A stretch of DNA of 38,421 nucleotides, taken from positions 1 to 38,421 of the forward strand of contig PKSY01000068.1 in the NCBI GenBank assembly GCA_002869405.1, written 5' to 3'. Numbering within the stretch: the stretch's first letter is position 1; each line of letters opens with the position of its first letter. The notes under the pieces are model-generated. The model saw only the letters and a program-made list of their open reading frames with translations, had not been told where the DNA came from and searched no databases. Positions 24,451 to 37,373 of the stretch are shown one piece after another. The DNA comes from Marinilabiliales bacterium. GTDB taxonomy: Bacteria > Bacteroidota > Bacteroidia > Bacteroidales > BM520. A program made the translations under genes and the position numbers.

Positions 24451-25836
24451 CTACATGGCTTTTTGGATTCTGATATCGTATTTCTTTAATCTTCTAACCA
24501 GGGCATCGCGGGAAATACCAAGTATCTGCGAAGCATTATTCTGGTTATAGTCGCACCTTTCAAGCGCAATAATAATCAGGCGCTTTTCATTTTCTTCAAT
24601 ATTCAGGTTTACATCGTTATGTGATACCTGCTTCTTGATACTGTCCTTTAACGGGAAGTCGGCTGCTGACAGCTCTTTTCCTTTCTGGAAGATCATGGCT
24701 CTTTCCACCATGTTTCTTAATTCCCTGACATTTCCGGGGAAGTTATAAGATGCAAGGTGATCGATAAGGGTCGGATTATATATAGGAATGGTTTTATTCA
24801 TTTTTCCGGCAAACTCTTTCAGGAAGAAATCCAGCAGTAAAGGGATATCCTCTTTTCTCTGGCGCAGAGGCGGGATGTGAATCTCTACAGTGTTAAGCCT
24901 GTGCAGCAGGTCGAGACGAAATTTCTTTTGTTCTACCAGGTCGTGCACCACATGATTTGTGGCAGAGATTATTCTTAATTCCACATTAATTTCCTCACTG
25001 CCACCGATACGGGAAACCCGTTTTTCTTCGAGGGCACGCAACAACTTCGCCTGCAGGTTAAAGGGCATATCGGCAATTTCATCCAGGAACAGCGTTCCTT
25101 GATTTGCTACCTCGAAGAATCCGCTTTTATCACCTATTGCACCCGTGAAAGAGCCTTTTTTATGACCAAAGAACTCACTCTCCAGAAGTGTTTCAGGAAC
25201 TGCAGAGCTGTTGACAGCCACAAAAGCATTCTCCTTGTTCGGAGAGCTGTAATGGATAATCCGGGCTACATTTTCTTTACCTGTTCCGCTTTCGCCGGTA
25301 ATCAACACATTAGTGTAAGGGTATTGGGATGCTGTAATTGCCAGGTTCAGAACCTCTTTTATGATTTTGCTTTCGCCGATAAAATTGCGTTGTATTCGCT
25401 GTTCCAGATCAAGAGATATCAGCGAACTTCTGTTTTTCATCTCTTTATATTTATGGAAAAGCTTCAGATATTTTTGTGTTCTTTCAATGGCGATCTGAAT
25501 ATCAAGGTGCCGGAAGGGTTTTCTGAGGTAATCGATGGCTCCGTTTCGCATGGCCTGAATAACTGTGTCCATATCGCCATGTCCGCTAACGATAATAACC
25601 TCCATGTCGGGGTAAGTTTGCTTCACGTCTTTAAGGATTTCGATTCCGCTCATTCCCGGGAGCCTGACATCAAGGATCATCAGGTCGATAGTTTTTTTCT
25701 GCAGAATTTTAAACCCTTCAGCAGGAGTGTTAGCGGTAAATGCCTCAAAATCTTTTATCTCGAGATATTCCTGAAGTTCTTCCGTAAAATTGACTTCATC
25801 ATCGAGAATGAGAACAGTCATCTTTTTATTTTCCAT
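24451..25836 (-). CDS. Sigma-54-dependent response regulator (receiver, AAA+, Fis-type HTH)
   Basis: VLILDDEVNFTEEL, MILDVRLPGMSGIEIL, GESGTGKENVARIIH, ESEFFGHKKGSFTGAIGDKSGFFEVANQGTLFLDEI, NNASQILGISRDALVRRLKKYDI. Confidence 0.96.
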   Translation of the reverse strand: MENKKMTVLILDDEVNFTEELQEYLEIKDFEAFTANTPAEGFKILQKKTIDLMILDVRLPGMSGIEILKDVKQTYPDMEVIIVSGHGDMDTVIQAMRNGAIDYLRKPFRHLDIQIAIERTQKYLKLFHKYKEMKNRSSLISLDLEQRIQRNFIGESKIIKEVLNLAITASQYPYTNVLITGESGTGKENVARIIHYSSPNKENAFVAVNSSAVPETLLESEFFGHKKGSFTGAIGDKSGFFEVANQGTLFLDEIADMPFNLQAKLLRALEEKRVSRIGGSEEINVELRIISATNHVVHDLVEQKKFRLDLLHRLNTVEIHIPPLRQRKEDIPLLLDFFLKEFAGKMNKTIPIYNPTLIDHLASYNFPGNVRELRNMVERAMIFQKGKELSAADFPLKDSIKKQVSHNDVNLNIEENEKRLIIIALERCDYNQNNASQILGISRDALVRRLKKYDIRIQKAM

Positions 25837-25854
25837 AAACCTGTGTGCGTCCTG

Positions 25855-27513
25855 TTAGTTGTTTACCGGTATTACCACCCTGACATTTGTTCCTGAACCT
25901 ACAGTACTCTCAATATCTATGGTTCCGTTCATGTCTTTGATAATACCAAAAGCAATGGATAATCCCAGTCCGGTACCTTTGCCTTCTTCTTTTGTTGTAA
26001 AGAAAGGTTGCATAATCTTATTAAGGATATGCTCGGGGATTCCGCAACCGTTATCCTTTACTTCAACAAATATATTCTTTTTTTGTTGATATGTTAAGAC
26101 CGTGATACTTCCATAATAGGACGATCCTTCTTTCTCTTTTCTTGAATCCACAGCATGCATTGCATTGGAAAGCATATTTAATATTACTTCCTCAAACTTA
26201 TATGTGTTGCCTATTGGTTTTTCAATATTATCATCCAGCTCCGACTCCAGAGAGATACCATGGTTGCTGTATTGTTCTGAAACAAGACTGATCGCATTAC
26301 GAATAGAATCGTTAACATTAAATTCTGTGTTAATATAGCCGTCCTGATCGCGGGAGAATGTTCTGACATGATCAATTATAGCTCTGGTTCTTAAGATATT
26401 ATCGTGGATTTTTTTGGTTTTTTTATCAAGATACTCTTCGGTAGCCTTTCCTGATTTTACAGCAAGAAGGATGTTGTCAAGACCAAGAGAGATGGTGTTC
26501 AGTGGCTGGTTTAATTCATGGGCAATTCCTGTAGCTATTTCTCCCAATCCGGCCAGTCGTTCTGTATGTCTTAGTTTTTTATGTACTTCCATTCTTTCCA
26601 GTGCACTGGAAATCAAGTCGATGAATATTGATGTGCTTTCAAATTTATCGAAAAAGGAGAGGGGATATTCGCGATTGTAGAAAACCAGTATAACCTGTAA
26701 TTCATTAAAAACATGAATAGGGAGCATGAGGAAATCGGTGGCCGGCGCCAAAACTTCTGCAGCATTTTTTACCAGTTCGCGGTTTTTGAGTTTTTCTCTG
26801 TTTTGACCAATGCTATCCAGAAAGAGGGTATTAATTTCATCTTTTTCGGAATATCCGCCGTTTTGATTCCATGCAACTCTTGGTACAAATGTATTCTGTA
26901 CAGGCTTCAGGTCGTACATTATCGCACCGGAGGCACCAATAAGTTCACCAATAATCTGAAGGGCATCACGCATGGAGGTGTCAGCTTCAAAATCACCGAC
27001 AAACTTTCCGGAAACCTTTGAATAGGATTTTTCAAGTTTAAGCTGTTCAGAGATAGTCTTTTGGGAAAGCATTTGTTCCTTAAAAAGCTCTTCAAGCCGC
27101 TCCGACTGTTCTTTAAGTTCAATCTGCTGTCGAGCCATGGCAATGAATACCTTCACCTTGCTAATGAGAAATTCATTGTTGAATGGTTTTCTGATATAAT
27201 CTACTGCTCCTGCTTTGTACCCTTGTGAAATACTCATCTCATCAAGATTATTGGCTGAAATAAATATAATGGGCATATTTATATGGTCGGGATCTCTGCT
27301 TATCCTGGACGCCAATTCAAAGCCATCCATCCCGGGCATATGAACATCCAGTAATGCAAGTGAGAAAGTATGCTCTTCAAGAATCTTTAAGGCTTCTTCA
27401 CCCGAGCCTGCAGTATGTATTTCAGCGTCAATCTTTTTTAATACTGCTTCCAAAAGCATGAGATTCTGCGGAAGGTCATCAACAAGAAGTATTTTGGGCT
27501 GGTATTCACTCAT
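25855..27513 (-). CDS. Soluble receiver-(GAF-like)-histidine kinase
   Basis: N-terminal receiver (ILLVDDLPQNLMLLEAVL, LALLDVHMPGMDGFEL); central GAF-like region; H-box IATGIAHELNQPLNTISLGLDN; HATPase motifs NAMHAV, DNGCGIPEHI, GKGTGLGLSIAFGII. No TM segment. Confidence 0.93.
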   Translation of the reverse strand: MSEYQPKILLVDDLPQNLMLLEAVLKKIDAEIHTAGSGEEALKILEEHTFSLALLDVHMPGMDGFELASRISRDPDHINMPIIFISANNLDEMSISQGYKAGAVDYIRKPFNNEFLISKVKVFIAMARQQIELKEQSERLEELFKEQMLSQKTISEQLKLEKSYSKVSGKFVGDFEADTSMRDALQIIGELIGASGAIMYDLKPVQNTFVPRVAWNQNGGYSEKDEINTLFLDSIGQNREKLKNRELVKNAAEVLAPATDFLMLPIHVFNELQVILVFYNREYPLSFFDKFESTSIFIDLISSALERMEVHKKLRHTERLAGLGEIATGIAHELNQPLNTISLGLDNILLAVKSGKATEEYLDKKTKKIHDNILRTRAIIDHVRTFSRDQDGYINTEFNVNDSIRNAISLVSEQYSNHGISLESELDDNIEKPIGNTYKFEEVILNMLSNAMHAVDSRKEKEGSSYYGSITVLTYQQKKNIFVEVKDNGCGIPEHILNKIMQPFFTTKEEGKGTGLGLSIAFGIIKDMNGTIDIESTVGSGTNVRVVIPVNN

Positions 27514-33512: not shown

Positions 33513-33640
33513 TCTTCGTGTGTGTTTTTGTGTCCTTTAAACCTGTTGCATGCCAGAAAGTAGGCTGCAATGTGGCAAATATCCGAAAAAATGCTGAATA
33601 TTGCAGAATTATTCATTCGTGGAGGGAATGCCCCAAGTCT

Positions 33641-35104
33641 ATGCAACGAAAATTTATTACCAATCTGGTTTTATTGCTTTTTCTGAACCTTCTGGTAAAG
33701 CCGTTTTGGATTTTTGGTATTGACCGGGTGGTGCAAAACACTGTTGGCGCTTCTGAGTATGGCTTCTACTCCGCAGTTTTCAGTTTCTCATTTCTCTTTA
33801 ATATTCTTCTGGATTTTGGAATAACCAATTTCAATAACAGGAATATCGCGCAAAACAGTCAGCTTCTGAATAAGCACTTTTCAAGTATAATTGTTATGAA
33901 GCTGATGCTGGGTCTGGGATATCTTATGCTGGCGTTTGTAATTGGAATGATTATCGGGTATAATGAGCCACGGCAAATGATGTTCATTGGATTTATGGCA
34001 CTTAATCAGTTTCTGATATCCTTTATATTATACCTGCGCTCAAATATCTCCGGTCTGTTATTGTTTAAAACCGATAGTCTGATATCTGTTTTAGACCGTG
34101 TGCTGATGATAGTGTTTTGCGGTATTTTACTTTGGGGAGGCATAACAGATAAAACATTCCGGATTGAGTGGTTTATCTATTCACAAACAGCTGCATATAT
34201 TTTTACTGCAATGGTGGCCTTTCTTGTTGTGGTAAAAAAATCATCTTTCCGCAAGTTTCATTGGAACAGGCCATTCTTTATAATGATATTAAAGCAGAGC
34301 CTGCCGTTTGCCCTGCTGACATTTCTGATGAGCTTTTATAACCGTATTGATTCAGTGATGCTGGAGCGTTTACTCCCTGAAGGTGTGGGTGCTTTACAGG
34401 CCGGAATCTATGCGCACTCATTCAGGTTGCTGGATGCGGGAAATATGATTCCTTACCTGTTTTCAGTGCTGTTGTTGCCAATTTTCAGCCAAATGACCAA
34501 ACAGGGAGATAATGTTGCCAAACTGATAAAGCTTTCTTTTACAATGTTGACAGTGATTAGTGTTACTGTGGTGGCCTGCAGTTTTTTCTTCAATTATGAA
34601 CTTATTGATCTTCTTTACACTTCACATATTGAAGAATCAGCTGTTATTTTCAGGGTTTTAATGATTGGGTTTATTGCAATCTCCTCGACTTATGTTTTTG
34701 GAACCTTACTTACCGCCAATGGCAGCTTGAAAGAGTTAAATATTATTGCCGGCTCAGGTATGGTACTTAATCTGGTGTTAAACCTGGTGTTAATTCCAAA
34801 ATACCTTGCCCTTGGTTCTGCATATGCGAGTGTTATTACACAATTTTTAATTGTTGTTTGTCAGATTGTGGTGGTTACACGTAAGTTCCGGTTAAAGCCA
34901 GATATATCATACCTTTTGCGTCTGGCATTCTATATTCTGCTGGTTTTTGCAACCGGTTGGTTCGCTTCGGGCTCAGGCTATTCATGGTATATTGGTTTTG
35001 GCGCTACGGCCTTGCTATCTGTGATTTATGCAGCATCCCTGAAACTACTGCATGTCAGGGGACTCATATCAATCATCCGTGAGAAGCCGTTAATAAGAAG
35101 TTAA
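33641..35104 (+). CDS. Oligosaccharide/O-antigen flippase (Wzx-like, MOP superfamily)
   Basis: Polytopic; KFITNLVLLLFLNLLVKPFWIFGIDRVVQNTVGASEYGFYSAVFSFSFLFNILLDFGITNFNNRNIA; PFALLTFLMSFYNRIDSVMLERLLPEGVGALQAGIYAHSFRLLDAGNM. ATG 33641 preferred over the ORF start at 33518. Confidence 0.9.
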   Translation: MQRKFITNLVLLLFLNLLVKPFWIFGIDRVVQNTVGASEYGFYSAVFSFSFLFNILLDFGITNFNNRNIAQNSQLLNKHFSSIIVMKLMLGLGYLMLAFVIGMIIGYNEPRQMMFIGFMALNQFLISFILYLRSNISGLLLFKTDSLISVLDRVLMIVFCGILLWGGITDKTFRIEWFIYSQTAAYIFTAMVAFLVVVKKSSFRKFHWNRPFFIMILKQSLPFALLTFLMSFYNRIDSVMLERLLPEGVGALQAGIYAHSFRLLDAGNMIPYLFSVLLLPIFSQMTKQGDNVAKLIKLSFTMLTVISVTVVACSFFFNYELIDLLYTSHIEESAVIFRVLMIGFIAISSTYVFGTLLTANGSLKELNIIAGSGMVLNLVLNLVLIPKYLALGSAYASVITQFLIVVCQIVVVTRKFRLKPDISYLLRLAFYILLVFATGWFASGSGYSWYIGFGATALLSVIYAASLKLLHVRGLISIIREKPLIRS

Positions 35105-35165: not shown

Positions 35166-37373
35166 ATGTCTCATATGACTCAGAAAACACCGTCGGACAA
35201 GGCCTTTAATTCAATAAGTTTGATTGCCTTCTTGTATAAATGGAGACGTCCGATACAAATTCTTTCGGGAGCGGCATTTCTTCTGTCAATTATTTTCTCC
35301 GGGCCGGCGTTCATCACACCAAAATTCCGGTCAACAGTAGTCCTTTTTCCTACTTCTTCAAACTCTGTTTCCAAAGCACTTCTTTCAGAACGAGTGGATG
35401 CAAAGCAGGACATTCTGCAGTTTGGAGAGGATGAACAGGTGGAGCAAATGCTTCAAATTCTCTCTTCCAATCGTATTCGCGACAGGATAGTGGAGAAGTA
35501 TGACCTTTTTACACATTATAATATTGATTCAACAGAAAGGTTTCGGTATACAAGGCTGTATAAGGAATATGAAAGTAATATTAAGTTCCGCAGAACAGAA
35601 TACATGGGCGTTCTTATCCAGGTAATGGATAAAGATGCCAATACTGCTGCGCTTATCGCCAATGATATTGCAGAACTGCTCGACAGTACGAAAAGTGAAA
35701 TGCAGCATACCAGAGCCCGAAGAGCTTTACAAATTGTTGAGGTAGAGTATTTTCAGCTGCGTGACGAAATTCAGGCCATGGAAGACAGCCTGACAAAATT
35801 GCGCCATTTTGGTGTGCATGATTATGAAACACAGGCTGAGATGATTAATCAGCAGCTTGCAATAGAGATTGCTGACGGAAACCAAAAAGGTGTTAACGCC
35901 CTGGAAGCAAAACTGGAGATATTGGCGAAATACGGTGGCCCTTATGTATCTCTGCGTGATCAGCTTGAACATGAGAAAAAACAGCTTAGCCTAATAAAGT
36001 CAAAATATGAGGAAGCCAAGGTTGATGCTGAAGAAGTATTGCCACAGAAATTTGTGGTCAGCAAAGCCTATAAGGCAGAACGTAAATCCTATCCGGTGCG
36101 CTGGTTGATTGTGCTTCTGGCTACCATAGGAACTTTCTTTGTAACTGTTCTTTCTATTCTGATCCTCGATAATATAGATCAGCTTCGGGGTGAAAAAAAA
36201 AAGAAAGAACAAAAGGAAAAAAAAGAAAAAAAAGTAAGCAAGAGTAAAGAAAAGAAGGATGCATCACCTCTTTCCGTAAATAAAACTGAGGTGGTGGTTA
36301 ATCCTGAGCCAAAGCAAAAAGCATCTACAACGAAGCCCGAAGCTCAGGATAAAAATGAAAAGCAAAAAACACGGTTGGTATTATCAAAAAGTAAAAATCA
36401 AATGGAGAACTATTTTAGTAATTTACACCTCCTGAAGCTGATTCTTAAGTGGAAATTCCATTTATTGATTATTCTTCTGGTGGCATTAGTTGCATCAGCA
36501 TTTATCTCCGGGCCAAAGTTCATTAAGCCCAGATATAAATCAGTAGCAGTGGTTTATCCTTCCAACATCGCGCCCTATTCCGATGAAAGTGAAACAGAGC
36601 AAATGTTGCAATGGTTTAATTCACAGGATATTAAGGACAGTATAATTGATTATTTTGATCTGGATAAAAATTGGGGAATCGATAAGAATTATAAGTACTA
36701 CTACTCAACAATGATGTATGAGTATGGTAAGAATATCAAAGTCTCCAAAACCATGTATGAATCGGTAATGATTGAAGTTACTGATTATGATCCGCAAAGG
36801 GCCTGTGATATTGCAAATAAGCTTATTGAATTATACAATCGTAAAATTCGCAGAATTCATCGTGCAAAGTATGGCGAAGTTGTCGATGCGTATGACAATA
36901 TGTTAACCTGGAAAATGTCGAAAATCGACTCCGTTGAGATGGCACTGTCCAGACTTAGAAAGCAATACGGCATAATTGATTATAATAATCAGACTTTGGA
37001 AGTAACACGTGGTTTCCTTCGCACTGTTGATGGAACAGGTAACCTAAACATCAATACGCGGGAAGTAAACAGGCTTAAAGATAATATTGAGATGTACGGC
37101 GGTCAGTTTATTATTCTGAATACGCGTTTGTATGACCTTATCGACGAGTATAACCTTCTGGCCAAGGAGTATGATATTGCCAAGAAAGAGAATGAAAAGG
37201 AGTTTACATACACCAATATGGTTTCACCTCCTTATCCGGCTGATAAGAAGAGTTCTCCAATACGTTGGCTGATTGTAATGGTATCATTAATTGCCACTTT
37301 CCTGGTATCATTGTTTGTTATCAGTTTGGTTGAAAACCGCAAACTGCGTGAAGAACTGAAGAAATCATTGTAA
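35166..37373 (+). CDS. Tandemly fused double Wzz (polysaccharide chain-length determinant/co-polymerase) protein, no kinase domain
   Basis: Two similar halves: FSGPAFITPKFRSTVVLFP/ISGPKFIKPRYKSVAVVYP; EQVEQMLQILSSNRIRDRIVEKYDL/SETEQMLQWFNSQDIKDSIIDYFDL; YPVRWLIVLLATIGTFFVTVLSILIL/SPIRWLIVMVSLIATFLVSLFVISLV. Four TM segments with a Lys-rich linker. Confidence 0.88.
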   Translation: MSHMTQKTPSDKAFNSISLIAFLYKWRRPIQILSGAAFLLSIIFSGPAFITPKFRSTVVLFPTSSNSVSKALLSERVDAKQDILQFGEDEQVEQMLQILSSNRIRDRIVEKYDLFTHYNIDSTERFRYTRLYKEYESNIKFRRTEYMGVLIQVMDKDANTAALIANDIAELLDSTKSEMQHTRARRALQIVEVEYFQLRDEIQAMEDSLTKLRHFGVHDYETQAEMINQQLAIEIADGNQKGVNALEAKLEILAKYGGPYVSLRDQLEHEKKQLSLIKSKYEEAKVDAEEVLPQKFVVSKAYKAERKSYPVRWLIVLLATIGTFFVTVLSILILDNIDQLRGEKKKKEQKEKKEKKVSKSKEKKDASPLSVNKTEVVVNPEPKQKASTTKPEAQDKNEKQKTRLVLSKSKNQMENYFSNLHLLKLILKWKFHLLIILLVALVASAFISGPKFIKPRYKSVAVVYPSNIAPYSDESETEQMLQWFNSQDIKDSIIDYFDLDKNWGIDKNYKYYYSTMMYEYGKNIKVSKTMYESVMIEVTDYDPQRACDIANKLIELYNRKIRRIHRAKYGEVVDAYDNMLTWKMSKIDSVEMALSRLRKQYGIIDYNNQTLEVTRGFLRTVDGTGNLNINTREVNRLKDNIEMYGGQFIILNTRLYDLIDEYNLLAKEYDIAKKENEKEFTYTNMVSPPYPADKKSSPIRWLIVMVSLIATFLVSLFVISLVENRKLREELKKSL
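36193..36233 (+). other. Slippery poly-A cluster (A10, A8, A8) inside the double-Wzz gene
   Basis: A10 at 36193-36202, A8 at 36217-36224, A8 at 36226-36233. Off-frame stops follow at 36235-36237 (+1) and 36245-36247 (-1). Confidence 0.85.

Follow-up and report, generated by a model that had tools for sequence, protein, structure and literature searches.

A single plus-strand ORF (35166-37373) in the 38,421-nt stretch of Marinilabiliales DNA analysed here (hereinafter the window) encodes a 735-aa tandem Wzz protein, and an uninterrupted run of adenines lies where its first module ends. This arrangement raises the question of whether the gene makes only the two-module fusion (A-B) or also its first module alone (A). 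The comparison of related loci described below leads us to conclude, with reasonable confidence, that this gene for a two-module polysaccharide co-polymerase uses the run as a programmed site of transcriptional slippage, by which both A and A-B subunits would be made.

Hydropathy analysis identifies four TM-like segments in the 735-aa protein (aa 32-50, 315-333, 431-449 and 702-720), which form two modules, each consisting of a TM, a large domain and a TM. Module A (35166..36200, plus strand), defined by a profile of relatives and an AlphaFold model, is of the Wzz/PCP co-polymerase type with a periplasmic helical domain between its TM segments; module B (36402..37373, plus strand), assigned through Pfam Wzz, is a second Wzz/PCP module comprising two TM segments and the stop codon, and is about 28% identical to module A. 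A charged linker (36203..36401, plus strand, template-encoded frame), delimited by sequence and cytoplasmic by TM count, connects the two. The window protein as a whole matches Pfam Wzz weakly (20 bits; curated cut-off 25.5), and the match in the module B region (aa 421-470, E=8e-4) also lies under the curated cut-off. When relatives of module A are examined by profile, 22 of 23 match Pfam Wzz (best E=3.8e-8). A sequence search against solved structures returned nothing useful, but a Foldseek search with the AlphaFold model of module A (pLDDT 78) retrieved WzzE (8p3p, E=7e-8), Wzc and KpsE, so that hydropathy, model and fold search all place two TMs around a periplasmic alpha/beta-helical domain, as in Wzz co-polymerases. 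The gene sits between an upstream Wzx-like flippase gene (33518..35104, plus strand; Polysacc_synt, E=2.7e-18) and a downstream O-antigen polymerase/ligase-like gene that is incomplete at the contig end (37375..38421, plus strand; Wzy_C, E=4e-10). Both the fold and this position between Wzx and Wzy are shared with the co-polymerases WzzE, FepE, Wzc and KpsE; unlike the known Wzz co-polymerases, the window protein carries two modules in tandem, has a recoding-like junction and falls under the Pfam cut-off.

The A10 tract (36193..36202, plus strand) lies ten residues behind the second TM of module A and covers codons 343-346 (GAA AAA AAA AAG). Two A8 runs follow in the sequence (36217..36224 and 36226..36233, plus strand); both are lineage-specific and may add to slippage. 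Translation of the slipped frames indicates that, whichever of the three runs loses one A, the frame ends at the same TAA (36235..36237, plus strand) with a product of 356 aa, and that gain of one A leads to a TAA at 36245..36247 (plus strand), ending a product of 360 aa. Slips in the window thus close the frame and would leave module A alone in either case. The original prediction, which had located A10, A8 and A8 at the end of module A together with the two slip stops, is exact in all these coordinates. It had treated the three tracts as one cluster, and here only the A10 stood: the tract recurs at the same site and with the same sequence in 3/3 species of the genus, but the A8 pair is not conserved as a set, one of these species (L073) having neither run. 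A10 sites are rare, numbering about seven in the 3.49-Mb genome with both strands counted.

To place the junction in context, we searched the whole gene in 149 relatives, 100 of which gave a match, and compared the junctions. A public genome collection supplied 80 further loci, nearly all of them MAGs titled as Bacteroidota, and removal of near-copies left 109 non-redundant tandem-Wzz loci with both modules, of which 23 are fused in one frame and 86 consist of two adjacent genes. These loci derive mostly from MAGs, with one genome per species, and are related to one another, so the raw counts below overstate independence. The original prediction had named interrupted A tracts in homologues as the finding that would count against it; we find instead that 71 of the 109 loci carry an uninterrupted A9-A12 tract in the stretch that separates the two modules, most of them just behind module A. 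These 71 comprise 57 split loci, with separate, out-of-frame A and B genes, and 14 fused loci, in two of which (L096 and L139) an A9 lies deep in the linker rather than behind TM2. Runs of the length associated with slippage, about nine or more uninterrupted residues in the coding strand, are thus present both in the window and in its relatives. Their conservation exceeds what the encoded amino acids need, as Lys-Lys-Lys elsewhere in these loci is rarely encoded by AAA throughout (AAAAAAAAA in only 3 of 56 instances). Background AT-richness is ruled out by the flanks, whose 656 kb hold 9 runs of A9 or longer vs 71 in 24 kb of junctions, and an assembly artefact is ruled out by recurrence of the pattern in independent assemblies of many species. 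The tract is absent from 38 of the 109 loci, nine of which are plain fusions, and the slip is therefore not indispensable everywhere. One relative also carries a separate, extra module-B-like gene (L070:4023-4979, G079) about 1.7 kb downstream of its fused pair.

The 57 split loci that carry a tract all have A and B in different frames, and in every one of them the B frame runs without a stop from the tract to module B; shuffled linkers would leave it open in 10.7. The linkers of these loci contain no stop in 1995 B-frame codons vs 268 stops in the third frame, and the B frame stays open in 14/14 representatives that are less than 60% identical (P about 1e-16). Joining the two genes takes one added A in 54 loci and one lost A in the other three (L035, L055 and L114), and the resulting fusions would for the most part measure 667-727 aa, close to the 735-aa window protein. 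In 48 of the 57 loci, the B frame contains no ATG, GTG or TTG between the upstream stop and the tract end; a start of B upstream, inside A, is thereby ruled out in these 48, and translation could enter the stretch only through a shift. Synonymous change in B-frame linkers exceeds expectation (0.62 vs 0.22), although the alignments were protein-guided, which biases them towards such an excess. A slip would therefore open a meaningful frame in every one of these 57 loci, and the original claim that slippage yields single- and double-Wzz products receives strong support from the comparison, 71 of 109 loci having tracts and 57 being one slip from joining. Three further loci (L040, L043 and L116) have no tract and are out of frame, with a B frame that extends back past the stop of A, either as a chance overlap or possibly through another recoding signal.

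Within the genus of the window, the arrangement is the mirror image of this common form, as read from the sequences: A-B is already encoded by the template, and slippage would yield A alone. All three species encode A-B in frame, and the other two (L072 and L073) have an A10 at the identical place, within GAA AAA AAA AAG, followed by a diverged linker. A slip in either direction meets a stop within 0-28 codons, leaving module A plus a short tail; the A-only product is here a truncation, which sequence comparison tests less well than an added frame. In the wider family, L038 needs one added A and L035 one lost A, with the tract kept in both, and L010 and L011 have an in-frame UGA in place of the tract. 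The tract is retained under each of the three frame relations, as would be expected were both products important. The tree places fusions with a tract here and there among pairs with a tract, requiring 10 changes, although long branches leave parts of it unsure.

In the mechanism that we propose, RNA polymerase, assumed to slip in these organisms as in other bacteria and to do so at useful rates, would add or drop A's on the tract and thereby generate two mRNA populations from one gene. In the window, unslipped mRNA or mRNA altered by three A's would encode the four-TM A-B fusion, and a frame-changing slip would give a product that ends after module A in a short Lys-rich tail. Most relatives would work in reverse, the template encoding A alone and one added A producing A-B. 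Next to Wzx and Wzy, the two forms would then be subunits of a single membrane oligomer, with a tract-set A : A-B ratio that influences chain-length control; the slip site would thus probably determine how the machinery that controls surface sugar length is composed. Module B may additionally start at its own ATG.

Slippage of the ribosome rather than of RNA polymerase would supply the same two proteins for the same role. Such programmed -1 frameshifting, on an A_AAA_AAN heptamer inside the tract, produces the frame needed in 54 of the 57 split loci, and any tract of A9 or longer contains the heptamer in phase. Six or seven A's would suffice for a heptamer, however, yet the tracts are never shorter than nine. 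The longest junction A-run is bimodal, at most 7 or at least 9 and in no case exactly 8, and nine A's is the threshold described for bacterial transcriptional slippage, a length at which many genomes select against slippage (PMC1088944). The empty class at eight favours RNA polymerase over the ribosome. In only 11 of 71 tracts is G the final base of the last in-phase heptamer, and three loci (L035, L055 and L114) call for the opposite direction. Frameshift sites pair a heptamer with a stimulator; here downstream structure gives no signal (mean z -0.14), and upstream Shine-Dalgarno-like sites occur in only 2 of 57 loci. A structured stimulator can accordingly be dismissed both upstream and downstream of the tract, and ribosomal frameshifting appears improbable. 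Reports of slippage on A-tracts describe addition of an A (PMC5009743; tssM, PMC4256274), and the 54 loci that need one added A fit this direction.

The original prediction had left the choice between transcriptional slippage and phase variation open, and the comparison favours the former. Were tract length to differ between cells at the DNA level, switching them between A-only and A-B states, tracts of A9-A12 would be suitable substrates, as they mutate readily, and the close relatives L097 (A9, one added A needed) and L114 (A10, one lost A needed) do differ in both length and phase. Random switching would nevertheless mix the three phases, whereas a single relation, that of one extra A, prevails whether the tract is A9, A10, A11 or A12 (S2: 11, 35, 5 and 3), and a lost frame is restored elsewhere in the linker. 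We regard DNA-level phase variation as very unlikely. Similarly small is the probability that we assign to a junction with no recoding function, in which the Lys-rich anchor behind TM2 is merely AT-rich, slips are waste and B is translated from an ATG of its own. Positive residues are indeed common behind a TM, nine fused loci have no tract at all, and the Met at the B start is conserved, but such a reading leaves the avoidance of AAG, the empty class of eight and the 57/57 open second frames (0 stops in 1995 codons) unexplained. Under programmed slippage too, B may start at this Met: the ATG at 36402..36404 (plus strand; Met 413, MENYFSN) aligns with the start codon of separate B genes, and nearly all split loci, as well as most fused ones, retain a Met at this place (MENYF or a similar sequence). 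The earlier suggestion of internal initiation at this ATG gains support from its retention in fused loci, and B alone may be a third product, since the Met is conserved.

Some loci lacking the tract point to a probable second device at the same junction. Outside the order, 69 loci of the same class yielded no tract of A9 or longer; one locus found later, in a family of another order (L276, identical to L230), has an A10 with which one added A would give a 686-aa fusion, reflecting either independent origin or transfer. In tract-less split pairs, A and B share a frame in 17 of 29 cases (P 0.005), and of the 13 same-frame linkers that measure at least 30 nt, 10 contain no further stop (2.3 expected). 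Nine of these ten open linkers have TGA as the stop of A (P 7e-6 vs the stops of B genes). A genus of another order (f139), together with L181 (family f155), contributes 19 loci with a long same-frame ORF directly behind the stop of A, which is TGA in 18 and TAA in one (L265), and most of the 19 share the context TGA-[A/C]TA-CGG-AAA-CC. TGA-bridged loci with the conserved context (L174, L181, L244, L245, L249, L251-L256, L258, L261, L263, L264 and L267-L269) have open linkers of 90-240 nt behind the TGA. These relatives thus show what is expected of a readthrough gene, an in-frame UGA with an open and conserved extension behind it, making UGA readthrough likely there, and readthrough of the junction UGA could make the same A-B fusion. 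An alternative genetic code is ruled out, as module A contains no UGA and UGA ends other long ORFs in these loci, so that the codon is not reassigned. L138 and some other tract-less loci also carry the f139-type junction motif, and L009, L010, L011, L024, L046, L101, L115 and L141 have an in-frame TGA bridge with neither this motif nor an A tract. That tract-less lineages often bear a leaky-looking UGA at the same junction counts in favour of A plus A-B recoding. We lean, by a modest degree, towards a wider reading in which the tandem Wzz of Bacteroidia form a recoded family that has repeatedly used interchangeable devices (A-tract insertion, A-tract deletion, in-frame fusion slip and readthrough of UGA-[A/C]UA-CGG-AAA-CC) to keep A and A-B, the ratio being conserved rather than the mechanism.

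A literature search found no paper on slippage or readthrough in Wzz, and the nearest parallels lie in other genes. Thermus thermophilus dnaX makes tau and gamma through slippage on an A9 tract (PMC1088944). As in dnaX, the window gene has a coding A-tract, with the longer subunit proposed to come from unslipped mRNA and the shorter from slipped mRNA, and the ability of both dnaX forms to share one complex resembles the proposed A/A-B oligomer; unlike dnaX, a different gene is involved, and the tandem Wzz arrangement occurs in both orientations across the family. Citrobacter rodentium tssM1, also a membrane protein gene, has an A11 with about 20% RNA-polymerase slippage and needs both length variants; its slip lengthens the product, and that of Yersinia tssM3 shortens it (PMC4256274). 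Tandem Wzz loci include a similar mirror pair of lengthening and shortening slips, but the tract is reported to be uncommon among tssM genes (PMC4256274) and is kept in most tandem Wzz loci examined. Porphyromonas gingivalis WzzP, with proven chain-length activity, is likewise a Wzz of unusual size from the same phylum (560 aa, one module plus a C-terminal extension; PMC3684754), although no second module or slip site has been described for it. The A10-type junction would be a conserved slip site by which one DNA stretch gives a single- and a double-module protein in dozens of related species. If true, it would be a widespread, evolutionarily conserved example of programmed transcriptional slippage in genes that are cellular and non-mobile, in which mirror-image and UGA-based variants are natural answers to one need; co-polymerase length control through the ratio of one-module to two-module subunits would become testable, and annotation would be corrected for many genes called two separate Wzz proteins or frameshifted genes.

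Elsewhere in the window, at 24451-27513 on the minus strand, a response regulator - histidine kinase hybrid adjoins a sigma-54 activator with a response-regulator domain.
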